From positions 1 through 41,416 of IMG/VR virus record IMGVR_UViG_3300037346_000555: 41,416 nucleotides of DNA; one strand, given 5' to 3'. Within the stretch, counting starts at the first letter, position 1. Every line of letters begins with the position of its first letter. Positions 17,136 through 21,897 of the stretch are shown here, piece by piece. The notes below the pieces were generated by a model. It ran no database searches and was not told the DNA's origin. It saw only the letters and a list, made by a program, of their open reading frames with translations. A program made the position numbers and the translations under genes. The stretch comes from a virus.

Positions 17136-17396
17136 TTGAAGGTAACAGTATACACGACACCAAACTGCGCGCAGTGCATGACAACAAAACGAAAAATGGA
17201 CAATCTTGGAATCAAGTATGAAGTTGTTGACCTAACAACAAACCTTGACGTACTTGAACAGTTCAAAGGCTTAGGTCACACGCAGGCACCTATCGTTACC
17301 ACAGATACAAAAATATGGTCAGGATTCAGAAATGATAAAATAGAATCACTAGCAAGACATCTTTTAGTATCTAAAATTAGAGGAGAGACAGAATGA
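17136..17396 (+). CDS. nrdH: NrdH-type glutaredoxin-like redoxin, 86 aa
   Basis: Thiol electron donor for ribonucleotide reductase. The product has the redox motif TPNCAQCMTTKRKMD (CxxC at residues about 10-13), a TQAPIV cis-Pro segment and the NrdH signature WSGFRNDKI near residue 66, all in the thioredoxin/glutaredoxin order. Length is normal for NrdH. TTG 17136 is the start, directly after the upstream stop. The nrdB gene about 1.3 kb downstream is the natural partner; no reductase large subunit body lies between them. Actinobacteria use NrdH widely, which fits the host call. It overlaps the next gene by ATGA. Confidence 0.9.
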   Translation: MKVTVYTTPNCAQCMTTKRKMDNLGIKYEVVDLTTNLDVLEQFKGLGHTQAPIVTTDTKIWSGFRNDKIESLARHLLVSKIRGETE

Positions 17397-18108: not shown

Positions 18109-18182
18109 GCCCTGATAGCTCAGTTGGCCAGAGCATCGCTCTTGTAAAGCGAGGGTCGTCGGTTCAAATCCGACTCGGGGCT
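18109..18182 (+). tRNA. tRNA-Thr (anticodon UGU)
   Basis: Complete cloverleaf: acceptor GCCCTGA (18109-18115) with TCGGGGC (18175-18181), D arm GCTC/GAGC, anticodon stem TCGCT/AGCGA around loop CTTGTAA (anticodon TGT at 18143-18145), variable GGGTC, T stem GTCGG/CCGAC with loop TTCAAAT, discriminator T18182. CCA is not encoded. It reads ACA (and by wobble ACG), useful given the Thr-rich collagen-like fibres. Confidence 0.95.
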
Positions 18183-18186
18183 CGAA

Positions 18187-18423: not shown

Positions 18424-18594
18424 GGCTACAACGCCTGAGCAGTTGAGAGAAAAGTTCTCCCTAGCAAACAACCATAAGCGCAAGTTTTCCGCCGCAAGGT
18501 AACCTTATAAGCCTGAAACAAACAGGCATACGATATAACTTCAGCCACTTCTGGCACATAAAACGCATTGACCCTTGGAGGGGTTCTATTACCT
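18424..18594 (+). promoter_or_regulatory. structured leader region before the reductase cluster
   Basis: This 171-base gap has several small hairpins: GAGAA/TTCTC near 18446, GCCTG/CAGGC near 18512, and ACCCT/GGGGT around TGGA near 18571 that includes the GGAGG Shine-Dalgarno. TATAAC near 18534 is a possible -10. No protein-coding frame continues the NrdA-like sequence upstream; an in-frame stop lies near 18556. Confidence 0.4.
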
Positions 18595-18672
18595 ATGAAT
18601 GAAGAAATCATTGACGGCATTGTCTGTCCTGTAGACCCAATGGAAGCAATGATGTGCGAGAGCTGCCAGTAA
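18595..18672 (+). CDS. free-standing NrdA-like C-terminal redox tail, 25 aa
   Basis: The 25-codon frame encodes an acidic start (MNEEIIDGIV) and then CPVDPMEAMMCESCQ. Many class I ribonucleotide reductase large subunits end in exactly such a tail: a flexible segment with 'C..D ... CExCQ' whose last two Cys pass electrons from thioredoxin/NrdH to the active site. Its stop overlaps the nrdB start as TAATG, the arrangement expected of an nrdA-nrdB junction. Yet there is no NrdA body upstream: the same frame meets a stop near 18556. GGAGG lies 13 bases before the ATG, longer than ideal. It is either a remnant of a lost nrdA or a separately made tail. The similarity is from memory of the family, not a search. 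Confidence 0.6.
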   Translation: MNEEIIDGIVCPVDPMEAMMCESCQ

Positions 18673-19649
18673 TGGGTATCCTAGGAACAGGAATCCAAGA
18701 CGGGCTACTGCTCAAGCCCGTGAAATATCAGTGGGCCATGGACCTCTACGACCAGGCTGTAGCAAACACCTGGTTCCCCAACGAAATTCAGTTGGGCGAG
18801 GACATCGCAGACTTCAAGAAGATGACAGCGGAAGAGCAGCACGCTCTGACATTCCTCATGTCCTTCTTCAACCCTAGCGAGCTCATCGTAAATAAGGCAC
18901 TTGCCTTTGGCGTGTATCCATACGTGAACGCACCGGAAGCTCACCTGTACCTTGCAAAGCAGATGTGGGAGGAAGCCAATCACTGCATGAGCTTTGAGTA
19001 TGTGCTGGAAACCTTTCCTGTTGACCGTGACAAGATATACGCCCAGCACATTGAGTCTCCGACCATCTCTGCCAAGGAGGACTTTGAGACTAAGTACATC
19101 AAGCGTATGACCGAGGCAACTCTGGACATTACTACTCTTGAAGGCAAGCAGGACTTTGTTCGTAACCTGATTGCATACAACATCATCATGGAGGGAATCT
19201 GGTTCTACTCAGGCTTCATGGTTGCTTTGTCTTTCCGTCAACGCAACCTGTTGAGGAACTACGCGTCACTTATTGACTGGGTAGTACGAGATGAAAGTCT
19301 TCACCTCAAGTTTGGAATCAACCTGATTCTGACAGTGCTTGAAGAAAACCCTGAGATTGCCACTGACGAGTTTGTTCAGGAAGTAATCAAGATGATTACC
19401 GACGCAGTTCAAATGGAATGCGCGTACAACGAGGAGATGTTCCCGTCAGGTATTCTTGGTCTCAATGCTCAATACGTAAACCAGTACGTGAAGTACCTGG
19501 CTGACCGTCGCTTTGAAGAGCTAGGTCTTCCCGCGCAATACAACGTGAGTAACCCCGCAAAGTGGATGGCAACCGCTAATGACACTCTGCAGCTGGTGAA
19601 CTTCTTTGAGTCAACAAACACGTCCTATGAGGTAAACGCTAAAAGCTAG
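18672..19649 (+). CDS. nrdB: ribonucleotide reductase small subunit, class Ic type, 325 aa
   Basis: R2 subunit that houses the metal cofactor starting radical transfer to the large subunit. Metal ligands are all present: Glu70 (FFNPSELIV), Glu101 and His104 (WEEANHCMSF), Glu174 (IIMEGIWFYSGF), Glu208 and His211 (VVRDESLHLKFG). The residue that is the radical Tyr in ordinary class Ia/Ib (E. coli Tyr122) is Phe108 here, and the first ligand is Glu instead of Asp. Both are the hallmarks of class Ic, the Mn/Fe enzymes typified by Chlamydia trachomatis. The tail LVNFFESTNTSYE is the segment that docks on NrdA. The frame opens at GTG 18654, but ATG 18672 overlaps the upstream stop (TAATG). A large subunit must come from the host or from outside the window. 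Confidence 0.95.
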   Translation: MGILGTGIQDGLLLKPVKYQWAMDLYDQAVANTWFPNEIQLGEDIADFKKMTAEEQHALTFLMSFFNPSELIVNKALAFGVYPYVNAPEAHLYLAKQMWEEANHCMSFEYVLETFPVDRDKIYAQHIESPTISAKEDFETKYIKRMTEATLDITTLEGKQDFVRNLIAYNIIMEGIWFYSGFMVALSFRQRNLLRNYASLIDWVVRDESLHLKFGINLILTVLEENPEIATDEFVQEVIKMITDAVQMECAYNEEMFPSGILGLNAQYVNQYVKYLADRRFEELGLPAQYNVSNPAKWMATANDTLQLVNFFESTNTSYEVNAKS

Positions 19650-21215: not shown

Positions 21216-21452
21216 ATGGCTAGCATTGACGCATTGGACCAGATAGAGGCTAGGTTTCTTTTTGAAGAAGGAGACCATGAGCGCTTCGCGCACTACGTTG
21301 AGAAAAACGAATCCATGCGAGGTTACGTAGAAGGAACGCCTGTAATCGCGCTATGTGGAAAGGTTTGGGTTCCATCAAGGGACCCGAAAAAGTTCCCTGT
21401 CTGCCCGACCTGCAAGGATATTGTAGACGCATTGTTCCTACCACATGAATAG
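21216..21452 (+). CDS. DUF3039-family protein, 78 aa
   Basis: The sequence GTPVIALCGKVWVPSRDPKK followed by FPVCPTCKDIVDAL is the signature of DUF3039, a small actinobacterial family with three Cys that probably bind metal; HYVEKNES upstream fits its N-terminal part. The presence of this host-type family in a phage supports an actinobacterial host. Function unknown. Overlaps the next gene by 8 bases. Confidence 0.9.
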   Translation: MASIDALDQIEARFLFEEGDHERFAHYVEKNESMRGYVEGTPVIALCGKVWVPSRDPKKFPVCPTCKDIVDALFLPHE

Positions 21453-21897
21453 ACGAAAAGTGAAACTAACAACAGCAGAGATGCACCCTAAAAATCCGGC
21501 GGCACCGTTGGGACTAATACTTGGTGCAGCCTTGCTAAACATTGACATTGACATGGACTTTACTGAATACACGCATGACCTAGAGTTTCAGATTAGAACA
21601 CCTGATATTCGTGACGGCATGGCACACGGCATTGAAGACACGGACGAGGGTTGGATAAGGTCAGTTGAACTTATGATAAATCAATATCTAATTCCCAATC
21701 ACCCGGCTATGGCGTTTCACTACGATGGATTACGAACATACGGAACCACGATGCGAACACTGCTTGGTGTTCCAGCAGAACCGAGTACACTAAAAATAAT
21801 GCATATGCGAGTACGCAATCTGCTTGGAGGACGAGGCGGAGAGACCTTGCAGCGCGAAGACGTGCGATTATTGTCCAACATAGCAAGAAATATCTAA
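21445..21897 (+). CDS. hypothetical protein, 150 aa
   Basis: No recognised domain. It has a hydrophobic patch (PLGLILGAALLNIDIDMDF) too short and mixed for a clear membrane helix, and a basic C-terminal part (MRVRNLLGGRGGETLQREDV). Overlaps the DUF3039 gene, so it is translated from the same message. Confidence 0.75.
   Translation: MNRRKVKLTTAEMHPKNPAAPLGLILGAALLNIDIDMDFTEYTHDLEFQIRTPDIRDGMAHGIEDTDEGWIRSVELMINQYLIPNHPAMAFHYDGLRTYGTTMRTLLGVPAEPSTLKIMHMRVRNLLGGRGGETLQREDVRLLSNIARNI

Follow-up and report, generated by a model that had tools for sequence, protein, structure and literature searches.

Class I ribonucleotide reductase is very probably split in Microbacteriaceae and their phages, with the redox tail of the large subunit NrdA encoded as a separate mini-gene whose peptide would act in trans, and with phages supplying a tail of their own. 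During turnover of class I enzymes a cysteine pair in the active site becomes oxidised and is re-reduced by a C-terminal cysteine pair, which in turn is recharged by thioredoxin or glutaredoxin (PMC5704485, PMC4520616). The separate tail was recognised in the window, the whole 41,416-nt viral stretch analysed here, and was then compared with tails of bacterial and other phage genomes.

The tail ORF of the window and its neighbours

The features of the region are:

17136..17396, plus strand: nrdH-like redoxin (PF00462, glutaredoxin, 1.9e-10; TIGR02194, NrdH, 2.6e-22)
18577..18583, plus strand: Shine-Dalgarno (SD)-like GGAGGGG, 11 bases 5' of the tail ATG (read from the sequence)
18595..18672, plus strand: stand-alone NrdA redox-tail gene, product MNEEIIDGIVCPVDPMEAMMCESCQ (translation, open-frame check, alignment A2, tail profile)
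18660..18669, plus strand: C-terminal CESCQ codons, approximate position (redox CxxC and final Gln; from the translation, with C, C and Q invariant in A2)
18672..19649, plus strand: nrdB, class I ribonucleotide reductase small subunit (PF00268, 3e-75), overlapping the tail stop (TAATG)

Translation of 18595–18672 gives MNEEIIDGIVCPVDPMEAMMCESCQ*, a peptide of 25 residues with three cysteines and a CxxC pair at its extreme C-terminus (CESCQ*). Its reading frame opens no earlier than 18562 (36 codons), and the last A of the stop TAA (18670–18672) is common to the nrdB ATG (18672–18674). The SD-like motif is present in 8/8 members of the window clade. A tail profile that includes the window peptide itself recovered the ORF with E = 4.9e-14, which, together with at least 119 loci found with a DNA pattern of about 49 bits, places it far from chance. 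Judged from sequence, the tail ORF is a real gene, neither a fossil nor a chance frame.

The short frame, its overlap with nrdB and the absence of an upstream reductase catalytic body had been noted in a preliminary description of this DNA, and all were confirmed by translation and a PF02867 search. No NrdA catalytic domain was detected within the 41.4-kb record and, with no nrdA body upstream, the tail has no covalent link to NrdA. The record is a linear virus contig and possibly incomplete, so a phage nrdA may lie outside it. In a search for structured RNA or an intron 5' of the tail ORF, Rfam gave tRNA alone above chance; a tRNA-Thr (TGT) lies just upstream of the tail-nrdB region (18109–18183, plus strand). 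The peptide resembles neither glutaredoxin or NrdH, which have a thioredoxin fold and an N-terminal CxxC whereas the CxxC here is C-terminal within 25 residues, nor NrdJb and the class II cysteine-rich domain, which span 150–230 residues compared with 25 residues and three cysteines.

The window NrdB shares 78–85% identity and the same C-terminal region with NrdB of Microbacteriaceae, and it therefore likely pairs with host NrdA. The nrdH-like redoxin, which scores 78.8 bits against TIGR02194, just below the model cut-off of 85.75, is a candidate reductant of the tail. Further downstream, a 150-aa ORF (21445–21897, plus strand) matches positions 179–268 of the 724 in TIGR02505, a model of class II ribonucleoside-triphosphate reductase (E 3e-7). 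This ORF is probably a relic or derived fragment; in the relative L005/G002 a class II enzyme of full length is encoded some 5 kb away from nrdB.

Tail-less NrdA and tail genes in Microbacteriaceae

The bacterial NrdAs closest to the phage enzyme are those of Microbacteriaceae, the likely hosts, in which class Ia NrdA has a C-terminus without cysteine (for example ...APARRGFGGLAPKAGE*). NrdA sequences were aligned on the phage enzyme and catalytic residues scored by alignment column. C230, N442, C444, E446, C459, Y762 and Y763 are kept in 47/47 tail-less NrdAs; by comparison with class I enzymes in general, these columns represent the thiyl-radical Cys, a catalytic Asn and a catalytic Glu, the two redox Cys and the paired Tyr. 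After the Tyr pair there is no cysteine in any of these 47 intact catalytic subunits, compared with two or three in each of 32 tailed relatives. An [RK]GFG motif is present in 45 of the 47 tail-less C-termini (L165–L234), where the free tail might dock. An AlphaFold model of tail-less NrdA made with 16 sequences had a mean pLDDT of 54 and was too poor for use. The shortfall of one phage NrdA (L028) relative to NF005101 was considered as a sign of tail loss and rejected; it is uninformative because tail-less host proteins fill the model (that of G153 aligns over 1–822).

A mini-ORF lies directly behind tail-less nrdA in 42 of the 43 loci with a complete flank. The host nrdA frame closes before the tail, whose ATG often overlaps the nrdA stop; examples are MNEEYIVPVDPMDELQCESCQ in Alpinimonas and MNYTTSVDEYVVPVDPMDELQCDSCQ in Aurantimicrobium. 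A DNA pattern beginning with CP gave no matches in tail-less hosts and six in tailed genomes; it missed the host tails, in which the first Cys is replaced by a different residue, and a looser search of the nrdA flanks found them. Long open frames under some host tails (486–1475 codons) were examined as possible NrdAs with the tail in cis, and the 11 inspected proved to be out-of-frame readings over tail-less nrdA. Among 150 Microbacteriaceae genomes, all 69 with NrdA of the tail-less type (67 over the model cut-off and two fragments) have a stand-alone tail, against 2 of the 81 without that NrdA, as read by eye from the tail and NrdA tables. Of the two exceptions, one has no ribonucleotide reductase that could be found and the other gave a weak tail match. 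Most Microbacteriaceae genomes without this NrdA gave only an NrdE-like match of approximately 180–200 bits.

Many genomes carry, besides the copy between nrdA and nrdB (tail1), a second copy at another locus (tail2, L255–L284; for example MDNENDTVGGYAVPVDPMDLLQCDSCQ), frequently upstream of a dehydratase, MaoC and murB-like cluster (gene names read from sequences). An SD-like motif precedes tail2 at a frequency of 0.97 versus 0.14 in the background, a contrast somewhat inflated because the choice of start favoured SD motifs. In three genomes (G101, G064 and G182, the last a Homoserinimonas MAG and the genome of L183), nrdA is followed by nrdB with no tail between them and the only tail found lies elsewhere.

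Detached and in-cis tails are homologous. Both CxxC cysteines and the final Gln are invariant throughout alignment A2, which spans the two forms, and the in-cis NrdA C-terminus of Jiangella, Cellulomonas, Demequina, Nocardioides and Cutibacterium is the same sequence (for example VDGVACPVDPMERLQCESCQ). Within 198 genomes of the whole order, 15/15 tail matches outside the centre genome are in-frame NrdA C-termini. A third cysteine, the first of the motif (CPxDP), is found in most phage and in-cis tails and is usually V in host stand-alone tails, a difference that speaks against the split-enzyme reading. In a tree of 80 NrdA sequences, made by a quick method and with L026 on a long branch, there is one change between tail-in-cis and tail-less forms, and phage NrdAs fall inside the tail-less clade, L028 and L009 beside Aurantimicrobium and Alpinimonas. 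A MAG labelled Cellulomonadaceae (L168) falls beside Pontimonas in this tree and may be mislabelled. As part of the same strongly favoured reading, a single ancestral event would have cut class Ia NrdA just before the CxxC tail in Microbacteriaceae.

Stand-alone tails are under purifying selection. Pooled pN/pS was 0.26 for tail1, 0.08 for tail2, the more conserved of the two, and 0.19 for the phage set, and invariant residues use several codons. The phage set was gathered with a pattern fixing the cysteines and DPM, and entry into the other sets likewise depended on a motif; motif positions are therefore conserved partly by construction, and the test is carried by the rest.

Tail genes in other phages and competing explanations

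Searching with NrdB recovered 32 phage loci. The mini-ORF is immediately 5' of nrdB in L001–L005, slightly farther upstream in L008 and L015, about 1 kb or more upstream in L011, L009 and L028, and behind nrdB in L007. With the A2 tail profile, a tail was found in 22 of 29 nrdB-bearing phage records. A strong NrdA match was present in only 3 of the 21 phage records searched first (G004, G015 and G020); these three pair a tail-less NrdA, ending without CxxC (...PKKGFGFAVAKN, ...PRKGFGFKSAN), with a separate tail gene upstream. Phage NrdAs outside the group (L040–L043) keep the tail in cis. The suggestion that an intron or mobile gene interrupts nrdA, as in phage Aeh1, and that the window ORF is its final segment was not upheld, since no catalytic piece lies upstream and the tail gene is 5' of nrdA in nrdA-bearing relatives. 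In phage Aeh1, NrdA function is reportedly divided between two or more polypeptides, a likeness to the present phages, and the break there goes with a mobile gene within nrdA. Here, in contrast, nothing but the tail has separated from an intact catalytic body, and this is so in bacterial hosts and phages alike.

At least 119 IMG/VR phage contigs carry the tail pattern (C..DPM..C..CQ-stop, about 49 bits, chance expectation in the collection far below one). Among the 119 matches listed, all end short frames of 24–135 codons from stop to stop and none ends a full NrdA. NrdA, NrdB, a class II enzyme and NrdH were absent from most of the fetched stretches around listed matches. Genes for an M23 peptidase and for small membrane proteins typically lie nearby; the M23 peptidase known from Pontimonas phage phiPsal1 recurs with 72 of the 119 matches listed. 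In phiPsal1 an unannotated tail ORF (...VDGIDVPIDPMDLLQCTSCQ) follows the annotated holin; tail ORFs are also present, unannotated, in Clavibacter phages CN1A and CMP1, in the latter again after an annotated holin, and in phage Pan2 the ORF is gene Pan2_27. None of the matches in isolated phages is strong by itself (tblastn E 0.02 to 1); they were accepted because of their exact ends, the family motif and their position.

That most phage copies lack nrdA and nrdB would suit a peptide acting as an inhibitor or decoy, binding host NrdA or thioredoxin and blocking or diverting host dNTP synthesis, as would the extra cysteine of phage copies that is absent from host tails. This explanation is nevertheless improbable: the full CxxCQ is present in all collected phage copies (part of it demanded by the pattern itself), the window copy is coupled to nrdB, and the three phages that pair a tail with their own tail-less NrdA call for a working tail. 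Marginally less probable again is re-use of the phage mini-protein in an unrelated role, such as metal binding or lysis, its likeness to NrdA tails being due to descent only. Such a role would fit the many copies that adjoin M23 peptidase and holin-like genes, and those of phiPsal1 and CMP1, which follow annotated holins; the location nevertheless varies among phages, the window clade is coupled to nrdB, and the sequence constraints equal those of host and NrdA-borne tails. A second function of the phage tail, in addition to that of a redox tail, is possible because phage copies often adjoin lysis genes (the M23 peptidase and small membrane proteins) and not nrd genes.

The split could also exist in DNA only, with a programmed frameshift, bypass or re-joining fusing the tail to NrdA. 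Frameshift fusion would predict what is seen in 35 of 42 host loci, a tail in the -1 frame behind nrdA, often with overlapping stop and start; the other two frames are, however, used in seven loci. Fusion by frameshift is excluded in G101, G182 and G064, where the only tail lies away from nrdA; tail2 copies are likewise unlinked to nrdA, phage copies including that of the window have no nrdA upstream, and many copies have an SD motif and ATG of their own. Fusion is thus unlikely, slightly more so than an unrelated role. The proposal, made in the preliminary description, that the ORF is a leftover of a deleted phage nrdA agrees with the lack of nrdA in the record and has almost no chance of being correct, given a stand-alone form conserved in more than 100 phage contigs under purifying selection, with its own SD motif and ATG and the profile match given above.

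A tail peptide working in trans with host or phage NrdA, which had also been put forward at the outset, is in turn strongly supported by the comparisons: NrdA of the likely hosts is tail-less and the hosts carry the same mini-gene, the record holds no complete tailed nrdA, and the ORF is conserved in relatives and similar to large-subunit C-termini.

Proposed mechanism and precedents

In the split-enzyme reading, the tail cut from ancestral NrdA would have survived as a gene of its own (tail1). Because tail-less NrdA keeps an active-site cysteine pair needing re-reduction, the peptide most likely does the job of an ordinary tail in trans. It would dock on the tail-less NrdA dimer, use its C-terminal CxxC to reduce the disulfide of the active site, and be recharged by thioredoxin or NrdH. 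The window phage would supply NrdB, tail and NrdH to work with host NrdA, and would presumably benefit from doing so; the three nrdA-bearing phages would pair their own tail with their own tail-less NrdA. For most phages no other ribonucleotide reductase gene was detected in the stretch fetched, and the tail may be the sole contribution. A broader proposal, that the tails are diffusible and interchangeable peptides serving a family-wide enzyme, and that phages take over or boost the host enzyme with a tail gene of about 25 codons alone, is put forward with distinctly less assurance, though it is favoured. If correct, the tail gene would be among the smallest metabolic genes carried by any virus, and one very small peptide may be enough for viruses to control dNTP synthesis in the host.

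The closest precedent is NrdJa/NrdJb of Pseudomonas aeruginosa, a split class II reductase with the redox part on a separate chain, NrdJb (PMC4520616, PMC5704485). In both systems a gene beside that of the catalytic subunit encodes redox cysteines as a chain of their own, which serves the active site in NrdJa/NrdJb and would do so here; both parts of NrdJa/NrdJb are needed in vivo. NrdJa/NrdJb differs in being class II and B12-dependent, with an NrdJb of 229 residues, whereas the present system is class Ia, uses a peptide of about 21–40 residues (25 in the window), has a second unlinked copy and is carried alone by phages. Tails can serve another subunit, as in the cross talk of NrdJd (PMC5704485). 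In one published test, activity was not restored by a class II tail domain expressed on its own (PMC5704485), which by analogy would count against a tail acting in trans. The class I NrdA/NrdE C-terminal tail has homologous sequence (CPVDPMxxLxCESCQ) and the same predicted role, and differs in being the end of NrdA rather than a gene of its own. A NrdB-glutaredoxin fusion in Facklamia (PMC6187632) is likewise a rearranged redox relay of a class I reductase, by fusion there and by detachment here.

One paper states that, outside viruses, NrdJ is the only ribonucleotide reductase found to be split (PMC4520616). No report of a detached class I tail was found in the open-licence literature, although one may have been described elsewhere. 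In a survey, 1737 of 2022 class I sequences had a CxxC; tail-less entries may therefore have been noticed without explanation. What appears new here is a class I case of a split reductase with a proposed trans redox part, which is no larger than a peptide and occurs in phages as well. Class I NrdA and its mobile CxxC tail are usually regarded as inseparable, and the natural, family-wide detachment of the tail offers a clean system in which tail docking, service to the neighbouring subunit and the limits of re-reduction can be approached with peptides in trans. It also adds to Microbacteriaceae and their phages a conserved gene too short for annotation, and provides a DNA marker for phages of this family.

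Two minor observations concern phages with tail genes. An RNase H-like gene neighbouring the tail of Pan2 (L252, Pseudanabaena phage) is common to 40 environmental contigs of the tail group; the cyanobacterial host label of Pan2 may be questionable, and a host among Microbacteriaceae is conceivable. Free-standing intein-derived ORFs are located directly behind the tail gene at L009:2556-3539, L028:2556-3539, L011:5043-5981 and L013/L029/L031:5037-5996. These ORFs are without the first intein cysteine, are 34–39% identical to the intein within the NrdA of L026, and include one LAGLIDADG_3 match.
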